From assembly GCA_031292625.1 (NCBI GenBank), contig JARLGU010000029.1, forward strand, positions 1 to 51,116: DNA of 51,116 nucleotides, given 5' to 3'. The notes beneath the pieces were generated by a model. The model saw only the letters and a program-made list of their open reading frames with translations. It did not search any database and was not told the origin of the DNA. Every line of letters begins with the position of its first letter. The stretch's first letter is position 1. Below are positions 25,973-48,607 of the stretch, one piece after another. Position numbers and translations under genes: made by a program. Origin of the DNA: Capsulimonadaceae bacterium (GTDB taxonomy: Bacteria > Armatimonadota > Armatimonadia > Armatimonadales > Capsulimonadaceae).

Positions 25973-28900
25973 CTATTCCGATGCCGGCGGGGTTGGCCGG
26001 CGTTCCGGGAGGTCGCCGAGCAATCCATCGAGCGACACGGGGCCGCCGGACTCCGCACTGCGAGCTCGCTGACGGCGGCGATTCCAACGACGCCGGCGCG
26101 ACGGAGTGGTCGCTGCTTCTTGGCCAGATGCGGCTGGATCTTCTATCTTGCCGAGGACTTCTTCCTCGCTCGGCAAGGAGTCGACGTCGTCCGGCATATC
26201 GACGCCTTCAATGATCTGCGCGACTTCGGGGACATCGAGCGCCGAAAGCTGCGGTAGGTCCTGCTGTTCCGAGTATCCGCCGCGCTCCTCTTCGTCGCCG
26301 TTGCCATTCTGCGAGGTCTGATCCTGCCGGTCCCGGTGCGCCTGCATCGACCCGCGAAGCTCGTCGAAGCTCAGCCCCAGTGCCGTACTTAGCTGCGCAA
26401 GGGCGCCATACAAGAAGAAGTGCGTCGAGCGCCCTCGCATGAAGAAGCGGAAGCTGGACGTCTGTTCAGAAACGAGCCGCCGTTCCGTGACGCTGTAGAC
26501 CGCCGACTGTTTGGGCAAGTGCAACGTCCGCAGCCCGGTATAAGGAGCATGGACCATTAAGAGCCCCTCGCCCGCTGCGACGATATCGTCTTGCAAATCG
26601 TAAACGTGCACCCCCGCATACCGGAAAATCCCTCTAAGGAGCTCGCCGGTCAGGTGAGGTTCGCCCACAAAGACAGATCGCCAACCGCCCGCCATGTTGC
26701 GAGCGACGATTGACGGCACGCCGGACTGAATGTACTCGCCGAGAACCATTCCCTGCGGATCGACGCTGGTGTACGAGGGGTTTACCACCTCCTCGGAGCC
26801 CATTCGCTTGCCGCCGTGAAGCCGTTCGATCACCGGATGGCGCTCTTCCGTAAACAGCGTCCCAATCCGTGCATTCCACGGCTGCCTCTTGAGGGCTTGC
26901 CCAACGATCTCGGAAACCTCTTGATGCGTGAGGCCCTTTTCATCGAACAGCCCGGGGGCGTACATCCAGACCAGCGTCTTGCCGGACACCTGAAACCGCT
27001 CGCGAATCGCATGCCGTTCCGCCGTCGTTACGCGCAAGGCGTTCAAGAAAACAAACACCTTCGGATCGGTGGGTACGGACGCCAGATCGCTCTGCAGATA
27101 GTAGCCGACCGATGCTCCCGAGCGGCATAGAAGATCGCGGATCTTCGTAATCAACGCCGCTTGGATCTGCAATCCGTTCCCATCGGCGCGCGCATACGCA
27201 AAGCTCGCCTCATCGACGATCACCGCGACTTCGGGGGCGCTCTCCGTGCTTGCCGCCCGCAGAATATTCGCATATCGCTGCTGTTCCCGGAATTGATCGA
27301 TGTCGCTCCAAATGCTATCGGAGTTGAGCCAGCCCTGGCCCCAAAGATCCATCCAATTGATGCCTGCCCGATGTACGACCGCTGTCAGAGCGTTGCGGCG
27401 ATGGACTGACACCGTGTCCTGAGGCGTCCCGATTTTCGGATTATACGCGTCCTCAGTATCGTCGGCGGCAAGGTGGGTTTTTGTGTCGTCCTCGACGATC
27501 CAGATCTTTCCGTGCAGCCGGATGCTATCGACAGGGCTGCAGAAGGCGCCCGCGCCGCCAGCGGCCCGATTCGAGTACGAGTTCGGTCCGGCCAGGACAT
27601 CCACGGCGGGCGATGCAAGAACCTTATGCAACGATTGGTGGCCCGAATCGTTGCGGTGCGCGAACTCGAACGTATAACCGTACGAGGCTCCGACCAGCAG
27701 CCGCCCATCCGACAGGACCTTCACCGCCTCGGCCAGCCCGACAATCGCTTCGGCAACGATGTCCGACGAGTACGCGTGGTAGTCGGTGTAACGCCTGTCC
27801 TTGGCTCCCGAATAAATGGCGGGCTCGTAGGGCTTATCGGTCCCTCCGGGAGCGGTCCACGCGGGGATCTCGGCGCTATCGAAATCGACGGATCCGTCTC
27901 GCCAAGCCGCCCGGAGAGCGTACACGCTCTGATACTTCTCGTGGAGCCACTGCTGAAAGGCCCGGCGGTTCGGAGCGCTGAAATCGTATCCCGCCTGCGC
28001 ATCGTGGAACCATTCTCCCTTATCGAGATGCAGGCCAACGACGCGATCGCCGCCGAAAGTCGCCGGGTCGGCAAGATGGTGCAAGAGCGCGCCAATGGCG
28101 CCGACGCTGGCGCGCCAGAACTCAGCCGACGCAAAGGAAACATCGCCGTCCGAGCCGTTGGCATATTTAGCCAATTCGCCTGGATGAACGCGAGCCCAGT
28201 AATTCGTCGGCGCGCATTGCAGGCGGAGAATAATGCGCGCGTCCGGATCAGCCTCGATCAGTTGCGTCAATACCTCGTCGGTCCGCGCGAAGGAGCGCTC
28301 GCCATAAGCGTTCTTGAGCGGCAAATACGTGACAGCGGAAAACAGATGAACTCCGATTTGAGACGCTAACCGGATCTGGTTTTCGACAACCTGCGCGTCG
28401 CTCGCCGTTTCCGTGTTGACGAACATGATTTGCGGCTCGGTCTCCGCGCCGTCAATAATGAACTTTCCGTCCGGCAAGCTCAACCGGGCATTCACCCGCA
28501 ACGGGGCGGCTTCCAAGCTCAGCTCCTCGCAAGTCGGAACCAGGCGCGGCGCGCGCCAAAAAGGAGGCGGCACATACTGCGGAAGCGAGAGATCGAATTC
28601 TTCTTTCGCAGGCTGTTCCTCGACCTCCGATTCCGTGAGGGTCCCTTCCTGCTTGACGCCTCGACGACGCCCTCCCCGCCGCGACCGTCGCGGACGGCGG
28701 CCGTCTTGGTCGCCACTCTCGCCGGCATCGGCCGGAGCCGCTGACGCTTCGACGGACTCTTCCTGCCCTTCGGCGACGGCCTCCGCGGTGGAAGCCTCCT
28801 CGCGCTGACCAGCGCCCCTGCGCCCGCCCACGCGACGTCGCCGCAAGCGCCGGCCGGCTTGCTCGTCCTGCGTCGCCTCGCCTTCAACTGGCGGCTGATT

Positions 28901-29404
28901 GTCGGCGCCATCGGCGGCGGGAACGGCCGCTTCGACTTCCGGGGCCGGTCCTGCCTCCTGAGCGCGGCGACCTCCCGTGCGGCGGCGGCGGCGCTCGGGA
29001 TTAGTCGGCTCTAAGCCTTGAACCGGGATTTCCGCTGCGGGAATGGCGTTCTCTTGAGGTGCGATCGGCACGAGACCTTCCAACACCCCACCGAGGACTT
29101 CTTCGATCACAACAGGACCTGGAGGCGCCGAACGCCGACCGCCGCGCCTTAGACGCGGACGGACTTCCTCAGGGGCATCAGCAGGGGACGAATCATTTGT
29201 GGATTGCGGATCCTTGGGGACGCCGGCTTCAGCGGATTCCGCGGAAACCGCGGGCTTGCCGCGACGCCGGGTAGGACGTCTCTTCTTTTCTTCGGCCTCT
29301 ACAATATTAGCGGCATCAACTATTGGCTGGTCGTTCTCCGGCGCGGGCGAAATTCCCGGTTGCGCGGCGGCCCCATCGTCGGCCCGTCGCGGTGCTCTTG
29401 GCAT
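25973..29404 (-). CDS. GH42-like protein with arginine-rich disordered tails
   Basis: A 1143-residue protein with no signal peptide. Residues 1-270 are low-complexity and acidic, broken by five basic islands at about 42-50, 84-91, 138-147, 186-196 and 236-249; four contain GGRR (RLRRGGRR, RRRTGGRR, RRRVGGRR, SRRGGRRR). Residues about 290-660 are a GH42-like TIM barrel: WRAPRLVPTCEEL, QCAPTNYWARVHP, LHLDKGEWFHDAQAGYDFS with E464 as acid/base, RRAFQQWLHEKYQSVYALRAAW, and IWIVEDDTK with E638 as nucleophile candidate. A trimerisation-like domain (about 700-900) and beta domain follow. The last about 100 residues are acidic with a sixth basic island at 1103-1115. Such tails are typical of RNase E or RGG proteins, not glycosidases. 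A consensus promoter lies about 260 bases upstream. Confidence 0.85.
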   Translation of the reverse strand: MPRAPRRADDGAAAQPGISPAPENDQPIVDAANIVEAEEKKRRPTRRRGKPAVSAESAEAGVPKDPQSTNDSSPADAPEEVRPRLRRGGRRSAPPGPVVIEEVLGGVLEGLVPIAPQENAIPAAEIPVQGLEPTNPERRRRRTGGRRAQEAGPAPEVEAAVPAADGADNQPPVEGEATQDEQAGRRLRRRRVGGRRGAGQREEASTAEAVAEGQEESVEASAAPADAGESGDQDGRRPRRSRRGGRRRGVKQEGTLTESEVEEQPAKEEFDLSLPQYVPPPFWRAPRLVPTCEELSLEAAPLRVNARLSLPDGKFIIDGAETEPQIMFVNTETASDAQVVENQIRLASQIGVHLFSAVTYLPLKNAYGERSFARTDEVLTQLIEADPDARIILRLQCAPTNYWARVHPGELAKYANGSDGDVSFASAEFWRASVGAIGALLHHLADPATFGGDRVVGLHLDKGEWFHDAQAGYDFSAPNRRAFQQWLHEKYQSVYALRAAWRDGSVDFDSAEIPAWTAPGGTDKPYEPAIYSGAKDRRYTDYHAYSSDIVAEAIVGLAEAVKVLSDGRLLVGASYGYTFEFAHRNDSGHQSLHKVLASPAVDVLAGPNSYSNRAAGGAGAFCSPVDSIRLHGKIWIVEDDTKTHLAADDTEDAYNPKIGTPQDTVSVHRRNALTAVVHRAGINWMDLWGQGWLNSDSIWSDIDQFREQQRYANILRAASTESAPEVAVIVDEASFAYARADGNGLQIQAALITKIRDLLCRSGASVGYYLQSDLASVPTDPKVFVFLNALRVTTAERHAIRERFQVSGKTLVWMYAPGLFDEKGLTHQEVSEIVGQALKRQPWNARIGTLFTEERHPVIERLHGGKRMGSEEVVNPSYTSVDPQGMVLGEYIQSGVPSIVARNMAGGWRSVFVGEPHLTGELLRGIFRYAGVHVYDLQDDIVAAGEGLLMVHAPYTGLRTLHLPKQSAVYSVTERRLVSEQTSSFRFFMRGRSTHFFLYGALAQLSTALGLSFDELRGSMQAHRDRQDQTSQNGNGDEEERGGYSEQQDLPQLSALDVPEVAQIIEGVDMPDDVDSLPSEEEVLGKIEDPAASGQEAATTPSRRRRWNRRRQRARSAESGGPVSLDGLLGDLPERRPTPPASE

Positions 29405-29661
29405 GCTACTAAGTTCTCCAATTTTTGCCGCCCATGTTGTCGAAGAAAGTTACGAACGATTTCCGTCCCATCCCTTGGGGTAAAGTCGTCTCGTGACGCC
29501 GGCGGCCTCGCTCGTGCATCGGGCGGTTATCGATGCGTCGCTTTCGCGATTGTGCGTTCAGTCGCCGCGGCCGGCCGCAGTAGCGGTAGCCGTCAAATAA
29601 CTCGTATCCTTGCGGTCTCTGGAAGATTACTGAACATCCCGGCCGGGCAGATACTAATTAT
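29405..29661 (-). other. long predicted 5' leader of the arginine-rich GH42-like gene
   Basis: About 250 bases separate the consensus -10 box at 29662 from the ATG at 29404. No gene is seen in it. GC-rich segments around 29500-29580 could fold (for example the GGCCGGCC-containing stretch), but no known riboswitch was recognised. The ribosome site is GGAG about 11 bases before the ATG. Confidence 0.4.
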
Positions 29662-29854: not shown

Positions 29855-31237
29855 TTATTCGACGTCTGCGCTCGCAAGCGGGATCGGCCCGAAGGCAGGA
29901 AGCCCGCGATCTTCGCCATCAACAATGTTGCAGTACGGATTAACGCCGTAGCCGTAGTACAAATCCAGGGTCTGAAGTAGCGTCAAATCCATGCATGTCC
30001 TGAGCGTGGCTGTATCGTCCGCAAGATCAACACGGTAAGGCCGGCGCTCAATCCCGGTCTTGTCGACCAAGCTAAACCCGCTCGCACGGTCCGCTGCGCG
30101 CAAGGCGTTCTCCACATTCGAGAACTTTACGATAATATCCATGCCCTCATGGATGCTATTCGCCGCCAATGAGAGGCCGCTCACTTTAACCGGCGCCGTT
30201 CCGATGCCGTCGATGAGTGCATGTAAAGCTTTCGCGAGACGGCGTCCCAGCCGATTCTGCCCTTCACCGCTCAGGTGAATGATATCGTCAAGCGGCAGAT
30301 CGATCGCCGTAACCATCGTGACATTCGGGACGATATCGGGAAGATCGTATTGCTGGCGCCGGATTCCATTCCAACCTTCGGAATCTCCCCAGCTATCCGT
30401 AAGCGTTCCGATTTGCACAATCGCAACCGGCAACGCCTCATTGCCAAAATCCCGCCGCATCGCCCCGATGAGCGCCTTCATGCGGTCGGTATAGATCGGA
30501 GATGCGTCGACAGGGCTAGCGTCGGAGCATCCCTGATACCAGAGTATGCCGGCCACGCGCCCCCCATTCTTAGTAACTCTGCGAACCGTTGCGCCATAAA
30601 GACTGTGCCCGCCCTGATCCTTGAGCTCTGGGCTCCATTGGTTCATGCTCGTCCCGCCATGCGCGGACGCGATAAGTCCCTGAGGAACCCCGGTTAGGCG
30701 GTACATCTCCTGCCCGAACGACGGCCCTGGACCGGTTCCTCGCGTGACCAATGGGAGTGGCCGGACGCCATCCCTCAGGTCGGTGTGCACGGGATCGACC
30801 GTGATTGACAGGTCGTTAACCGGATCACGCGCCACATCCCAGTGATCGTCCATGTAGAACGCATGAACCATCGGGTGCGGCGGAAGCGCCTGCAAGATTG
30901 CCCCACACCCTTCCATGTTCGACTGGCCGGCCATCACCCATACATCGCCAACCAGGACATCGGCAAATTCGACGCTGTAACCGCTTGCTTCGATCTCGAT
31001 CATGATCTCGTACGGCCCCCCGATCGGCACGCCGGCGATCTCGCCGCACACGACGCCGTCACCCGCAATGCCCACGATCGCCCTATCAAAGCCCTGTACG
31101 ATCTCGCCGTCGTCATCCCTGACCGTCGCGAGCACATTGCCCTTCGCCGACGACGAGCCCGCGAACGCCGCCGCGCTGACATTCGCCTGGGTCCTCTGCA
31201 AAACCATGTGATCTTGTAAACCGCTATGAATATTCAT
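29855..31237 (-). CDS. sialate O-acetylesterase-like SGNH hydrolase
   Basis: A 460-residue protein of the SASA (DUF303) family. The N-terminal DHMVLQR block is typical of the start of these enzymes. VMAGQSNMEG carries the nucleophile S106, AHGGTSMNQW the oxyanion region, and LPLDDIIHLSGEGQNRLG the aspartate-histidine pair of the triad. It removes O-acetyl groups from sialic acids or from other acetylated sugars such as xylan. No signal peptide is present, unlike many relatives. The ATG at 31237 is preceded by GGAA; a TTG five codons earlier is an alternative. It is downstream of the fucosidase gene and separated from it by a strong terminator. Confidence 0.88.
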   Translation of the reverse strand: MNIHSGLQDHMVLQRTQANVSAAAFAGSSSAKGNVLATVRDDDGEIVQGFDRAIVGIAGDGVVCGEIAGVPIGGPYEIMIEIEASGYSVEFADVLVGDVWVMAGQSNMEGCGAILQALPPHPMVHAFYMDDHWDVARDPVNDLSITVDPVHTDLRDGVRPLPLVTRGTGPGPSFGQEMYRLTGVPQGLIASAHGGTSMNQWSPELKDQGGHSLYGATVRRVTKNGGRVAGILWYQGCSDASPVDASPIYTDRMKALIGAMRRDFGNEALPVAIVQIGTLTDSWGDSEGWNGIRRQQYDLPDIVPNVTMVTAIDLPLDDIIHLSGEGQNRLGRRLAKALHALIDGIGTAPVKVSGLSLAANSIHEGMDIIVKFSNVENALRAADRASGFSLVDKTGIERRPYRVDLADDTATLRTCMDLTLLQTLDLYYGYGVNPYCNIVDGEDRGLPAFGPIPLASADVE

Positions 31238-31284
31238 GCCGAACAGTTCCAATCTAAGAGTGCATCCCGTGCCGGCCAGACGAC

Positions 31285-31330
31285 AAAAAGGCCAGACGGA
31301 CTTTCGAATGCGTTCGAGTCCGCCTGGCCT
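31285..31330 (-). terminator. strong rho-independent terminator after the fucosidase gene
   Basis: On the minus strand a 14-bp stem with one mismatch (AGGCCAGGCGGACT pairing with AGTCCGTCTGGCCT) and a 14-base loop is followed by TTTTT. It lies between the fucosidase stop (31349) and the acetylesterase start (31237). Confidence 0.88.
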
Positions 31331-31348
31331 AATTCCTTCCGCAATGCG

Positions 31349-32641
31349 CTACTTTAAGAAAAGCTCAATAACCGGCGCTGTCACATCGGGCTTCTTCACG
31401 GGGATCTCAAGCGTTATCGTTGCCGCGCTGCGCTCTTCGACCATGGATCCGTAAGCCGCTTCCGGAACGCTGCGCAGAATCTTGATTTCCGACGCGTCGT
31501 TCAGCAACTGCGCGTACTCGATCTTATCGCCGATATTATCGAGGTGAATGTGGCGATACGGCCACGAAAAGACATGCAGGTAAAGCCGTCTGGTAACCGG
31601 GTTGTACGTGTACCGGCAGTCCTCCGGCGCGACAAACTCGTCGGGAGCCTGAGTGCATCCGTAGATCGAACGACTGTGATGATGCATCCATCGGCCAAGC
31701 CCAGCCAAGCGGTCCAAGGCCCTCGCATCGAACTCACCGCGTCCGGTAGGTCCGACATTCAAGAGCATATTGCCGCCTTTGCTCACTGAGTCGACGAGCA
31801 TCTTAACCAGCTGATCGACGCTCTTCCAGCTCTCCTCGTCGCGATGATAGCCCCACGAACCGCTGAGTGTCTGGCACGCTTCCCACACGACTGGCTTTCC
31901 ATTCACGCGCACCCATTCGCGCGGCTGGAACTGTTCAGGCGTCTTCACATCCTGATCGATTTGCAGACGATCGTTAAGAATGATGCCCGGCTGCAAGGAC
32001 CGGATCGTCTTAATAAGGTCTTCGCTCCCCCACTCTTTCTTGCCTTTGCCTTCGTTCCAATCGGAGGGTCCAATGGAAAAGTCGTACCAAAGGATATCCA
32101 CCTTGCCAAAGCGCGTCAGGAGCTCGCGCGTCTGGCCGTGCAGGTATTCGCGGTAAAGCGCCAGGTTCCGCTCTTTGTTCTTTTCACGCTCCGCCAGGTT
32201 GTCACGGTTCGGATGAATGTGGTCGACGGTGTAGTCCGGATGATGCCAGTCGAGCAGGGAATGGTAGAAACCTACCTTCATGCCCTTCTCGCGGAAGGCA
32301 TCGACCATCGGGACGAGTAGATCTCGTCCTGCTGGCGTGTTCGGGGCTTTGTAGTCCGTTAGATCGCTATCCCACAAGCAAAACCCCTCGTGATGCTTCG
32401 TGGTGACAACGAAGTATTTCATGCCAGCGCCGGATGCAGCGCTAGCCCATAGGGCGGGATCGTATAGGTCCGGATCGAATCGCTTGAAGTACTTCTCGTA
32501 CTGCTCATTCGTGATTCGTTCGTGGTGTCTGACCCACTCGTGGCGGGCAGGCAGGGCGTAGAGGCCCCAGTGGATAAACAGACCGAACCGGTCGTGCACG
32601 AACCAATCCGTGTCGCCGTCGGTCTTTGCTGGTTGCAACAT
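31349..32641 (-). CDS. alpha-L-fucosidase, GH29
   Basis: A 430-residue GH29 enzyme that releases alpha-L-fucose from glycans by a retaining mechanism. Seen are RFGLFIHWGLYAL (18-30), FVVTTKHHEGFCLWDS (77-92), DAFREKGMKVGFYHSL and the nucleophile D187 in DILWYDFS. The C-terminal beta-sandwich is shorter than in some members. No signal peptide is visible, suggesting an intracellular enzyme acting on imported oligosaccharides. The ATG at 32641 is preceded by AAGGAG; the frame up to 32710 is not needed. It shares direction with the acetylesterase and the GH42-like gene, making a third glycan locus without a local regulator. Confidence 0.95.
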   Translation of the reverse strand: MLQPAKTDGDTDWFVHDRFGLFIHWGLYALPARHEWVRHHERITNEQYEKYFKRFDPDLYDPALWASAASGAGMKYFVVTTKHHEGFCLWDSDLTDYKAPNTPAGRDLLVPMVDAFREKGMKVGFYHSLLDWHHPDYTVDHIHPNRDNLAEREKNKERNLALYREYLHGQTRELLTRFGKVDILWYDFSIGPSDWNEGKGKKEWGSEDLIKTIRSLQPGIILNDRLQIDQDVKTPEQFQPREWVRVNGKPVVWEACQTLSGSWGYHRDEESWKSVDQLVKMLVDSVSKGGNMLLNVGPTGRGEFDARALDRLAGLGRWMHHHSRSIYGCTQAPDEFVAPEDCRYTYNPVTRRLYLHVFSWPYRHIHLDNIGDKIEYAQLLNDASEIKILRSVPEAAYGSMVEERSAATITLEIPVKKPDVTAPVIELFLK

Positions 32642-32821
32642 AACTCTCTCCTTGTGAGTCTCCATCATGACGCAGCCGCATCGGATCAGTCCATGAAGGA
32701 GACCGGACAATTCATTGGCAAGTGTTCATCAAACTACTTAGAACGTGCCCGTCCCTGTGTTGGGCGCGGACGAATGGAATTCCTCCCACCCACTCCGTCA
32801 AAACTTAAATTCGCGGAAAAA

Positions 32822-43692: not shown

Positions 43693-45720
43693 TCATTGCC
43701 AGAACTGATACGTCGCACTGCCGGTCGCGATGCCCCAAATATTCAACAGACTTCCCTCAATGAACTGACCGAGGATCAAACCGTAAAAGAACGGCAGCCA
43801 CGCCTGATACGTTTTGACGCCACCGTAGCGCAGCATCAGAGATTTCGTCATCCACGCAATCAATATCGGCATCCACACGAAGTTAATCTCAAACGATGAC
43901 GAAACGGCGAATGCGAGAGGATGAAACGGAAAGGCCGCCATGCGGATGCGTAGAAGCTGGAGAAACGCGGCAAACAAAAATCCTACGACCCCTGCAACCA
44001 GCACATGATCGTTTCCGGCCTTGGGGGTCTGCAGCCAACTTGCGAGTCGCGACCAGCTCTCATAACTGTACGCGTGCATTGCAGTAAGCTCCGCTTTGCC
44101 CAGGGCGCCGAACTGATACGACAAATGCAGCATCGCCCACATCGCCGAAAGCGCCCCGACCGCGCCAGCCAAGATCAACACCCAGAACCAGCGCCGCATC
44201 TCTCGCGGAGCGCCGGCGGCATCGGCCATCTTCAACGCCTCGAGCTGCACTGGCATCGGATGACTGCGGTACGCGCGAGTTAGGAAGAAGAACATACTGA
44301 AGGCACCAAGGTCCTGCCCGCGGAGAGCATGCGCGCCCATGACATCCGTAATGATCAGATCCGGCCCCGAGTTGTGCAGATCGTGAATCGGCGTCCCAAG
44401 CTCAGCCCGCATGCGCGTAATCGCGACGGCCAGGCCAAGGTAAATCAGGAAGAACAGAACGGCAAGCCATGGACTGAGGCCGATATAGATCGCAAACCCG
44501 ACAAGCGCAAGAAACGCAACGAACATTCCGATCAAGGCAGTCCGATAGCGAACAGGTTCCGCACTATCGTCAAGCGTGCTTGGCATCCCCAATGCGAGGC
44601 GGAACACCTGGCCGAGGTACTGGCGCGCCAGGTAAATGCTCGAAACGCAGAAGAAGAAATAGGCCCCGAACGATTGGTAGTTGGCATATGGCATCTTATT
44701 GTCGAAATCCCACGCCATCGCCACCACGAAAACGGACTGCAACTTCCAAAAGATGAAGAAGAAGACGAGAGAGAACAAAAAGTCCAGAGGCATCAACATT
44801 CCGAGGCCAATCACGAACGGAAAAAAGGAGATCGGCGTCCTCCCAAGCGCATTCCAGGGCTTCGGATACCCGGTCGCATCCCATTGATAATACGCAAGGC
44901 CATTGCCGCCTGGCGACAATATCGAGGGGATCGCCGGATGGTAGTAACTGATCGAGTTAATGATGTCGATACCAGCAGCCAGTGCAAAGCCAATCCAAAA
45001 GATCCGGCTGCGCATCAAGGGCGGACCGCTTGCGCCATCCCCGAATCCTGATGTTATCTCCAAGGGGAGCCTCACAAGAGGAAAGCTCAGCCTTTCATTG
45101 TCTGCCCACTGTTTGCGCAGTATCGTATTCACGCACTGCATGAGATAGAGGAGCACAACGAGAAACGATGTCCATGCCAAAACTGGCACTGCCCATGATC
45201 GGAGGTGCGCTGTCGTATAGAGAGTCGAGTTGCCCTGGAAGAAGTCCTTAGCGGAGTCCGGGTCCTGCAGGGTCAGCCAATGCGGATAGAGGTTTCCAAA
45301 CAGCGCATTCCAGTGGTTGCTTCCATCGGAGAGATAAACCGGCGCCGCAATCATCGGGATCAGGATCTGGATCATATCGTGTCCGCACAATGCGGTCCCG
45401 ATTCCGAGCATCGAATAGACCAGCAACAACTCACCTTGCGAAAACGCGAGTCGCGGATTTAAGCGCCTAACAGCCGAGTTTATGAGAGTCAAGACCACAA
45501 GCTCGAAGACACAGTTGAAGAATAGCGAAAGCGTCGTCGGATGCGCGGAATATCGAATGATCTCCATGCACACGACCCAGTAAGCGTTTACAGGTAAGAG
45601 CACAATTCCTAAAAGCACCGCTCGCAGGGTTACGGAACTGCGCCGCGCATGCGCCGCCTGCCCCATGTCACTATTCTTATCTGGCGCTCCGCCCAGATCG
45701 TTCGCCTCAACTACGGCCAT
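43693..45720 (-). CDS. large polytopic membrane protein, DUF6785/DUF6784-like
   Basis: A 675-residue integral membrane protein with about 14 hydrophobic helices. The blocks LAFSQGELLLVYSMLGIGTALCGHD, QWADNERLSFPLVRLPLEI and AITRMRAELGTPIHDLHNSG are typical of the OPT-like family annotated DUF6785/DUF6784 in Armatimonadota and Planctomycetes. A transporter role for oligosaccharides or peptides is inferred from the number of helices and the setting at the end of a glycoside hydrolase cassette. The ATG follows GGGAGG. It is 190 bases downstream of the DUF5010-like gene. Confidence 0.8.
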   Translation of the reverse strand: MAVVEANDLGGAPDKNSDMGQAAHARRSSVTLRAVLLGIVLLPVNAYWVVCMEIIRYSAHPTTLSLFFNCVFELVVLTLINSAVRRLNPRLAFSQGELLLVYSMLGIGTALCGHDMIQILIPMIAAPVYLSDGSNHWNALFGNLYPHWLTLQDPDSAKDFFQGNSTLYTTAHLRSWAVPVLAWTSFLVVLLYLMQCVNTILRKQWADNERLSFPLVRLPLEITSGFGDGASGPPLMRSRIFWIGFALAAGIDIINSISYYHPAIPSILSPGGNGLAYYQWDATGYPKPWNALGRTPISFFPFVIGLGMLMPLDFLFSLVFFFIFWKLQSVFVVAMAWDFDNKMPYANYQSFGAYFFFCVSSIYLARQYLGQVFRLALGMPSTLDDSAEPVRYRTALIGMFVAFLALVGFAIYIGLSPWLAVLFFLIYLGLAVAITRMRAELGTPIHDLHNSGPDLIITDVMGAHALRGQDLGAFSMFFFLTRAYRSHPMPVQLEALKMADAAGAPREMRRWFWVLILAGAVGALSAMWAMLHLSYQFGALGKAELTAMHAYSYESWSRLASWLQTPKAGNDHVLVAGVVGFLFAAFLQLLRIRMAAFPFHPLAFAVSSSFEINFVWMPILIAWMTKSLMLRYGGVKTYQAWLPFFYGLILGQFIEGSLLNIWGIATGSATYQFWQ

Positions 45721-45910: not shown

Positions 45911-48607
45911 TCATTGCGCAAGCCGCTCTCGTGATGCGGCAATTTTCGCGCGGTAGTTGAAGCGGCCGTCAGGCGCTGCGTCGCCGTTGAGCGTGAAGTC
46001 GTCTGCGCAGGGCTTTGACGATAGGCAGTTGTCCGCCCACTTGAAATCGATAAAGACGGGTTTCTTGCCGCCGATGGCTGAGTAGGGGACGCGGATCTCC
46101 ATCTCGCTTCCGCTATACCGGCACGAGACTGCAGCGGGTTTTTCCCAGGCATAGGCGTTGCCTTTGCACCTCTCGACGTACGCAGTTGTCCCAGTTGGAT
46201 GAATGCGGTTGATCACGTAATCATAGCCGAGCCAACCCGTTTTGTAGTTTCCGTCGATGTTAAGGAAGAGCAGCATCCAGTTGTTGCCGGTAGGCTTCGT
46301 TATTGCGTTACGGGTCCGCGCATAAAAGTACGCGGCCGTACTGTCGTAGCAAACCTTCGCGGAGATTATATTGTTGCGGCCGGTATTGTTCGTATAGTGT
46401 ACGTTGCCGTTGCCGTCGAAATCGCGGTGCGCCTCCCCCCCGATTTCGTGGCGAAATTCCGGTCTGACATCCTTCCACTGATCGAAGCGGCCATTTATCG
46501 CGATAGTGCGAGGCGAAACCGCCGGGAGCGGGCGGACGCCTTTGTAGCGGCGGATGAACGACACCATTTGATAGTAGTAGTCGTCGCCGTGCCCACCCCT
46601 CATCGGTTCGATGTCGCGGCTATGTTCCTCGTCGAACTCGTCCATCCATCCCAGCTTATCGCCAGGTTTACGGTTCCAGTCAAAGCGCCACGCGCCATCG
46701 CGCTGGAAACATCCTGAGGCGACCCACTCGTTCCAACCCGTAATAAAGATCACCTTCGGATCTTTTTGCAGCGCGTATTCGAATTGCTCGGCGAAGTTGC
46801 GTCCTTTGTTCACAGCTCCGGCCGATGTATCCCAGGAGCCGAGAGCATAGCTTCGCCCAAGCGATTTCGGGTTCGACATCACATCCAAATGCCCATCGGC
46901 CGCATTTTGCGCGACGCCGACGGACATCTGCTCGTTTTCCCCTCGATCGTTCTTGAAGACGTGCTGAGGATACACCTCCAGCCACGACCACATATTGGAC
47001 TTCGTGGGGCCGCGAAAGTAGTCAGCCTGTGGCGCACGAAACGTGAACGCGGCCTTAAGGGCCGCGTTCGCGCCGGTGGACGACGCGCCGTAAAACAATT
47101 CGCGAGAGCCGACCGATGCGTCGGAAGGCGCGCCGCTCACGAACGCACGGCAGCCGCCAATAGACTTATTGATGCTCCACCACCCAACCGTGCCGACCGG
47201 CTCGCTCAGTTCGAGGTAGTAATCTCCGGCGGGAAGGACGGACTTGGTCGCAATGCCTCGCCACTCATTGTCGATAATATTATCCAGCCGCTCTTGGGCC
47301 AAAATGCGCCCTTTCGCATCGCCCTCGCGCAGCGTTAGGGTCGCGCCAGAGCCGGTTGTGTTCCAGGTTGGAAAGTGTCCGCCAACATGGTCGAACGCGG
47401 CGCCCGCGTGAAACGTCGCCCCCAGCGTAATTCCAGAATCCAGCCGGCAGGGAACCTCCTTGAGCTCTATGTCTACGACGTCAAACTCCGCGACCACGCC
47501 GCCAGCTGCGCTCAAGCGCAGCGAACGCCCACCGGCGGCCGTTTCCGACCGCCCTCCGTCGACGAAAGCATGTTGCCCATCGAAAGCCACCGCAGAACTC
47601 CACCAGCCGACCTCGCCGGCCGGGTCGCTTAGCTCAATGTAGTAATCTCCGGCCGGAGCTGGTGAAGACATGGTCACGCCGCGCCACAGGTTGTCGACGA
47701 TGTTTGTGAGTCGCTCTTTCGCCACGACTTTGCCGCCCGGTCCCTGTTCGCGCAGAGTCAACGTGGCGGCGGAGTTTGTCGAATTCCATGTCGGTAGACT
47801 CACCTCCGCCGTCTCGAACGGCTTATCGGCATGGAACGTCACGCCGAGGGTTCTTCCAGTTTCGAGCTTTGCCGGGACGCGGTTCGAGCCCTGCGCCTCG
47901 ATTCGATATTCGACGCCTGCAGCCTTCTCGTCGGCTAAAATAAGCGGCTTGCCATCGCGCCGGTACCAATGGTCGGAGTATAGCCCCGGCTTGTACAGGT
48001 CATTGTATAACTCGTTCACTGTCGATGCCGGATCCCCGAACGGACACAGAAAAGCAACCTTTGGCGTGCGCCCGCCGTCAACATTGATCCTGTCATATTC
48101 GCTGAGCATCGCCATATAGACTGGCCGGTACGTCTCCTTATTGGAATTGTCGAAAATGACGGCGTCGACACCAGCGTCCGTCAGCATCTGGGCGTGCTTG
48201 CGAACGACATACGGATCCTCGTCGCGATAGTATCCCAACATTGGCTCGCCCCAATAGTGCAGTGCGGCAAGCGGCCCCCAGGCCGGACTTTCTGGATGAG
48301 TCAGCGCATCCGGCGCCGTCGCCAGGATCTTCGTGATGTCATACGGTCCGCATTTCGTTCCGTAGCCGTGCCAGAGGAATCCGAAAATCGCAACCTGTCG
48401 ATCCGCGCGCGGCGGTCCGACTTGTTCATAGGTCGGCAATGCGCGCCCGAGCGCGTCGACGCCCACCCATGTGTCCGAGTACGTGTCCCAGACAGGCGTC
48501 GCGGACGACGCCAGGGCAGGCGCGTGAGGAAACGCCAGGAGAACCGCAACCACGGCGATGGCAACTGCAAGTCTCCGTCCTACAAAGTGTTCTATCGTCA
48601 AAATCAT
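45911..48607 (-). CDS. exported DUF5010/GH99-like glycosidase with tandem inserted modules
   Basis: An 898-residue protein with a signal peptide (LAVAIAVVAVLLAFPHAPALA, cleavage near 33). The TIM barrel begins at about 65 (IFGFLWHGYGTKCGPYD, EPMLGYYRDEDPYVV, AGVDAVIFDNSN) and ends with FITGWNEW, where E627 is the likely catalytic residue. Between them, at 246-352 and 387-492, two copies of a jelly-roll-like module interrupt the barrel (LPTWNSTNSAATLTLRE and FPTWNTTGSGATLTLRE; both end with PAGDYY-ELS and VGWW). The C terminus (about 705-890) is a CBM9-like domain (INGRFDQWKDVRPEF, MEIRVPYSAIGGKKPVF). It probably attacks alpha-mannan or similar glycans outside the cell. The ATG has GAGG upstream. 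Confidence 0.82.
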   Translation of the reverse strand: MILTIEHFVGRRLAVAIAVVAVLLAFPHAPALASSATPVWDTYSDTWVGVDALGRALPTYEQVGPPRADRQVAIFGFLWHGYGTKCGPYDITKILATAPDALTHPESPAWGPLAALHYWGEPMLGYYRDEDPYVVRKHAQMLTDAGVDAVIFDNSNKETYRPVYMAMLSEYDRINVDGGRTPKVAFLCPFGDPASTVNELYNDLYKPGLYSDHWYRRDGKPLILADEKAAGVEYRIEAQGSNRVPAKLETGRTLGVTFHADKPFETAEVSLPTWNSTNSAATLTLREQGPGGKVVAKERLTNIVDNLWRGVTMSSPAPAGDYYIELSDPAGEVGWWSSAVAFDGQHAFVDGGRSETAAGGRSLRLSAAGGVVAEFDVVDIELKEVPCRLDSGITLGATFHAGAAFDHVGGHFPTWNTTGSGATLTLREGDAKGRILAQERLDNIIDNEWRGIATKSVLPAGDYYLELSEPVGTVGWWSINKSIGGCRAFVSGAPSDASVGSRELFYGASSTGANAALKAAFTFRAPQADYFRGPTKSNMWSWLEVYPQHVFKNDRGENEQMSVGVAQNAADGHLDVMSNPKSLGRSYALGSWDTSAGAVNKGRNFAEQFEYALQKDPKVIFITGWNEWVASGCFQRDGAWRFDWNRKPGDKLGWMDEFDEEHSRDIEPMRGGHGDDYYYQMVSFIRRYKGVRPLPAVSPRTIAINGRFDQWKDVRPEFRHEIGGEAHRDFDGNGNVHYTNNTGRNNIISAKVCYDSTAAYFYARTRNAITKPTGNNWMLLFLNIDGNYKTGWLGYDYVINRIHPTGTTAYVERCKGNAYAWEKPAAVSCRYSGSEMEIRVPYSAIGGKKPVFIDFKWADNCLSSKPCADDFTLNGDAAPDGRFNYRAKIAASRERLAQ

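Follow-up and report, generated by a model that had tools for sequence, protein, structure and literature searches.

Why does a protein built around the core of a sugar-cleaving enzyme carry long, charged tails that resemble RNA-binding regions? The question is posed by one gene in a 51,116-nucleotide stretch of a Capsulimonadaceae genome (hereafter the window), which a first-pass annotation had read as a GH42-like glycosidase with RNA-binding-type tails and no signal peptide. The coordinates given for it are exact, and the gene lies on the minus strand:

25973..29404, minus strand: open reading frame of the tailed GH42-like protein, 1143 amino acids (from the frame, its translation and orthologues)
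29416..29419, minus strand: ribosome-binding site GGAG, 12–15 nt upstream of the ATG with 11 nt between

The window sequence places the ATG at 29404, and most orthologues have an SD-like site ahead of the corresponding ATG. The first 70 amino acids hold no hydrophobic segment, in agreement with the annotated absence of a signal peptide. Three objections to the tail had been raised in advance, and each was looked for. A true start near residue 270 is refuted; start and GGAG site both stand upstream of the tail. A frameshift artefact is likewise refuted, the tail being in frame and under selection. Nor is the tail missing from orthologues, since at least three N-terminal islands occur in 74 of the 78 whose N side is complete. 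Comparison of close pairs gave a third-position excess and a dN/dS of 0.23–0.44 for the N tail, as against 0.01–0.09 for the core; the tail is therefore translated and constrained, more loosely than the core. That a sequencing, frameshift or start-site artefact explains the protein is practically out of the question: the same architecture recurs in more than 70 independent assemblies, some of which are complete genomes in one contig, the tail is under purifying selection, and a ribosome-binding site precedes the start. The ribosome-binding site, the dN/dS values, the shuffles described below and the orthologue survey rule out frameshift, wrong-start and chance readings of the tail, and the tailed reading frame is confirmed as real.

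Outside the core, the protein consists of basic islands set among acidic linkers, with the following elements read from the sequence:

28538..29404, minus strand: N-terminal polyampholyte tail, residues 1–289, predicted to be disordered; supported by composition and orthologues (dN/dS 0.2–0.4 in close pairs)
29255..29287, minus strand: basic island 1, KKRRPTRRRGK, residues 40–50
29132..29161, minus strand: basic island 2, RPRLRRGGRR, residues 82–91
28964..28993, minus strand: basic island 3, RRRRRTGGRR, residues 138–147
28817..28852, minus strand: basic island 4, RRLRRRRVGGRR, residues 185–196
28652..28699, minus strand: basic island 5, RRPRRSRRGGRRRGVK, residues 236–251
26099..26371, minus strand: acidic C-terminal linker, residues 1012–1102, with 23 D/E and 5 K/R
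26060..26098, minus strand: C-terminal basic island RRRRWNRRRQRAR, residues 1103–1115, found in 79 of 82 orthologues
25985..26041, minus strand: C-terminal motif PVSLDGLLGDLPERRPTPP, residues 1122–1140, conserved within family f1 (rows L001 and L005–L009)

Residue positions bear out the five N-terminal islands of the first-pass annotation, with net charges of +6 to +10, and the presence of GGRR in four of them (residues 88, 144, 193 and 244). A short extra basic run, RAPRR (residues 3–7), opens the protein. The acidic linkers were also correctly described; those of the N tail are 31–46 residues long and contain 7–11 D/E and 0–3 K/R each. A sixth island does follow an acidic linker near the C terminus. 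Two measures needed adjustment: the N tail is long, as claimed, but reaches to about residue 289 rather than 270, and the islands are regularly spaced, with starts 42–56 rather than 40–55 residues apart. Disorder of the tail is predicted from composition only.

Could such tails be generic solubility or entropic appendages with no specific ligand, the product of biased, GC-rich sequence? Their aligned letters diverge fast and their dN/dS exceeds that of the core, as this explanation would have it. However, clustering of K/R in the N tail exceeded that in 1000 of 1000 shuffles (variance 4.14; shuffle mean 1.28, maximum 2.39), and a test of 12 orthologues gave K/R blockiness much higher than in shuffles for 11. 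Basic blocks are kept across families and are fewer, yet present, in L142, from a lysine-rich genome of 1.5 Mb; the C-terminal motifs are conserved; and a census of the host genome found no CGN-coded RRGGRR in frames of more than 250 amino acids other than that of island 5. We therefore regard generic tails as very improbable. A tail family common to other host proteins was ruled out as well, as neither the tail search nor the RRGGRR census found a related tail elsewhere in the host proteome.

The tailed gene is found in nearly every genome of a large part of the phylum, as a rule in a single copy, and genomes of 1.5 Mb are no exception. A core profile gave strong matches in 180 of 291 phylum genomes, a number that includes some paralogue matches in other families. 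The tailed group comprises 11 families (f1, f2, f5, f9, f14, f24, f25 and f27–f30). Among the 84 orthologues read for the tail survey, N tails hold 2–9 basic blocks in acidic linkers, and most have RGG/RRGG-type or plain arginine-run cores, not GRP-type. In L140 (f14, a single-contig genome), about 77 residues of open frame precede the core, so that either the N tail is shortened or the start is broken. Besides its single tailed copy, the host genome encodes two secreted-type paralogues; paralogues lack tails and most have a signal-peptide-like start. In the tree, 48 tailed proteins form one clade (support 0.973), apart from 11 paralogues, and the branching of tailed proteins follows taxonomy. 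The tailed orthologue is thus vertically inherited, and its core is followed by an acidic linker and a block rich in arginine. A literature search found no papers on a tailed GH42-like family.

The core and its catalytic-type residues are located as follows:

26393..28489, minus strand: GH42-like core, residues 306–1004 (Pfam PF02449; GH42 beta-galactosidases in the PDB)
28013..28015, minus strand: E464, acid/base-type glutamate, in 81 of 84 aligned orthologues and lost in f14 pseudoenzymes
27491..27493, minus strand: E638, nucleophile-type glutamate, in 82 of 84 aligned orthologues and lost in f14 pseudoenzymes

The window protein matches Pfam Glyco_hydro_42 weakly (18.6–19.8 bits; the cut-off is 21). 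Matches to the GH42 family were obtained for 12 of 15 orthologues (best E 3.9e-9), and a profile of 15 orthologues matched GH42 beta-galactosidases only when searched against the PDB. Residue E638 lies on a later barrel strand, a place that comes from alignment, not structure. The Asn-Glu acid/base motif of GH42 does not occur in the tailed family; in nearly all members, the residue before the acid/base glutamate is glycine (RGEW, HGEW or KGEW). AlphaFold models, built on alignments of 3–4 rows, had pLDDT values of 37 and 29 and were unusable. A PADLOC match to Cas11d over the barrel (2.3e-5) was taken as spurious. The conservation of both glutamates upholds the GH42-like core with E464 and E638 that the first-pass annotation described. 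Its term glycosidase suits most members and fails for those orthologues that have lost both residues.

These losses are seen in f14. Ten orthologues (L025, L146 and L197–L204) lack Glu464, with N, R, S, G, P or I in its place, and nine of the ten (the exception is L203) also lack Glu638, where L, M or D is found; L144, another f14 member, has Gln464. Each pseudoenzyme that was re-searched is the sole match at 1e-60 or better in its genome. The pseudoenzymes retain their tails, most have a C-linker motif like FDVPIMRLDEW, and they end in FRKRD or a close variant. Pairs of them give a dN/dS of 0.01–0.03 for the core and about 0.02 for the C tail, values obtained with dS near saturation. They fall mostly in one clade, and a Dollo count gives two losses; more are possible because L205 keeps Glu638 and belongs to the genus of L200.

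Catalysis is therefore probably not the whole of the conserved role. Most likely, catalysis is dispensable in some lineages and retained in most. A protein so strictly conserved after its catalytic residues have gone may be a nucleic-acid-linked scaffold. A rather unlikely alternative is that the protein is an active cytosolic glycosidase for which catalysis is selected; the tails would only localise it (to the nucleoid, to ribosomes, to polyphosphate or to an anionic glycan), and the catalytically dead copies in f14 would represent secondary, lineage-specific repurposing. The near-universal glutamates and the low core dN/dS speak for this alternative, and the neighbours of the window gene fit it too: genes for a SASA carbohydrate esterase and an alpha-L-fucosidase lie just upstream on the same strand (window 29855–32710). 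Yet these neighbours are not conserved across orthologues, and a conserved sugar operon was rejected for that reason. In at least ten f14 genomes the gene has been retained after loss of catalytic glutamates, and it persists in genomes of 1.5 Mb, which also weighs against selection for catalysis.

Short motifs at the C terminus form a further conserved element. The protein terminates in an [FW]R motif in 25 of 25 f14, 5 of 6 f27 and 5 of 7 f28 sequences, and its hydrophobic version recurs in f14 tails (19 observed, 3.2 expected). In f1, the conserved short motif of the tail is of the LLPGLPPRR type. The f14 pseudoenzymes keep a private C-terminal motif, FRKR[DE], under strong purifying selection together with core and tails. 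A search of 11 genomes found no other plausible gene ending in FRKR[DE]-stop, and the idea of a C-terminal tag common to several proteins was rejected.

Gene neighbourhood suggests a link to RNA. The tailed gene is followed directly by era, in the same orientation, in most f14 loci, in all five f27 loci with downstream sequence and in the single f29 locus. The gap is usually −4 to +6 nt, and the tailed gene is translationally coupled to era in these three families. Era is a ribosome-assembly GTPase, and the product encoded here carries 50S ribosome-binding GTPase and KH domains. FRKR[DE] is kept in L131 and L136, where era is not downstream, so the motif is not only an era ribosome site. In f24, an MtaB-like tRNA-modification gene (Radical_SAM and UPF0004) follows the tailed gene in 6 of 10 loci. 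Adjacency to era is limited to f14, f27 and f29; it is absent from the window's own family, which has no conserved neighbour of the tailed gene. Neighbours of era are often ribosome-assembly genes, but unrelated metabolic genes recur there too (PMC10582724), and the era context is thus suggestive only. An HAD phosphatase gene often precedes the tailed gene in f14, f28 and f30. A 73-aa protein is often coupled to it in f9, and also in L087 (f24). In L044, L087, L095, L096 and L100 (cluster 13), a protein of 71–114 aa is tightly coupled downstream; the one tested (L087) has no Pfam match. Elsewhere in the window, an 898-aa reading frame at 45911–48607 has no Pfam match and adjoins a DUF6785/DUF6784 membrane protein gene at 43693–45720.

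We tentatively favour a cytosolic GH42-like barrel that serves as a multivalent RNA-linked scaffold, its catalysis dispensable in some lineages. Judged from sequence and context, the basic blocks would bind RNA, with rRNA or ribosomal particles as the most likely targets, and the acidic linkers would hold the blocks in an extended state. Oligomerisation of the core, as in GH42 trimers, may multiply the tails, and each C-terminal short motif may dock one partner. In members with both glutamates, the barrel may still be able to sense a sugar ligand or cleave it; binding, rather than catalysis, would be the universal function. The first-pass label of an RNA-binding-type tail gains from the analogy with RNase E and from the era and MtaB-like contexts. 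Binding by arginine blocks extends beyond RNA to DNA and other polyanions, and such ligands are possible for these tails too. A tether to an envelope polymer, also proposed in the first-pass annotation, is unlikely because the window protein has no visible export signal.

A nucleoid or DNA-binding protein, with the islands as minor-groove hooks and the barrel as an architectural or metabolite-sensing module, would account for the arginine- and lysine-rich blocks and for the three AT-hook-like RGRGRPRK repeats in the N tail of L206 (f14). We consider it improbable, given that the usual tail cores are not GRP-type and that the recurrent operon partners act on RNA. The RNA-linked scaffold can be extended to a bolder and rather unlikely proposal: a core scaffold, specific to the phylum, for ribosome assembly or RNA metabolism, whose hub is the barrel, live or dead, whose arms for RNA and partners are the RNase-E-like tails, and which works with Era; it could replace the missing long tail of a short RNase E/G. 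Were an RNA-linked scaffold real, a cytosolic glycoside hydrolase fold would be wired into RNA biology, in the core gene set of several families of a little-studied phylum. Because dead copies occur naturally and are under strong selection, the choice between enzyme and scaffold is directly testable.

How does the protein compare with known systems? Its core can be aligned to the N-terminal portion of the barrel of GH42 beta-galactosidases (PF02449; PDB 4UCF and 4OIF), and its catalytic-type glutamates are at matching places. It differs in that the window protein is below the Pfam cut-off, glycine replaces asparagine before the acid/base glutamate, and the tailed proteins are intracellular, with long charged tails and some catalytically dead members. 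Paralogues from the same phylum (L002, L003, L026, L029 and L032) share a homologous core, about 28–33% identical to the query core, whereas their N termini are signal-peptide-like and they have no basic tails. With RGG/RG-box proteins, the tails share four GGRR cores among arginine blocks with acidic spacers; unlike those proteins, they have no dense tandem RGG, since GGRR occurs at the four listed positions only, the islands are 40–56 residues apart, and most families are glycine-poor. As in rnc-era type operons, the upstream gene is translationally coupled to era (PMC10582724), but the partner is a GH42-like protein, not RNase III or YbeY.

The closest parallel to the tails is the noncatalytic region (C-terminal half) of RNase E, a long polyampholyte, disordered and vertically inherited, in which RNA-binding blocks rich in arginine occur together with short linear motifs (PMC4435900; PMC11964227). 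In P. aeruginosa RNase E, the arginine-rich motifs bind RNA and drive foci (PMC11964227). The tailed proteins have a comparable charge-blocked region with arginine-rich islands, conserved in orthologues (its disorder judged from composition), as well as short conserved linear motifs ([FW]R in f14, f27 and f28; the LLPGLPPRR type in f1). Unlike RNase E, the window protein has no RNase_E_G catalytic domain (PF10150), and tails flank a sugar-enzyme core on both sides. A separate, short RNase E/G gene (575–775 aa) was present in 8 of 8 genomes tested. In L194, a long acidic stretch is inserted into the N-terminal part of the host RNase E/G, with the basic run RPQRRPMRGRGYRRQ after it. On sequence grounds, the tails may work like the RNase E noncatalytic region in a protein that is not itself an RNase E; scaffold tails of the RNase E type may thus have arisen a second time, on an unrelated enzyme.
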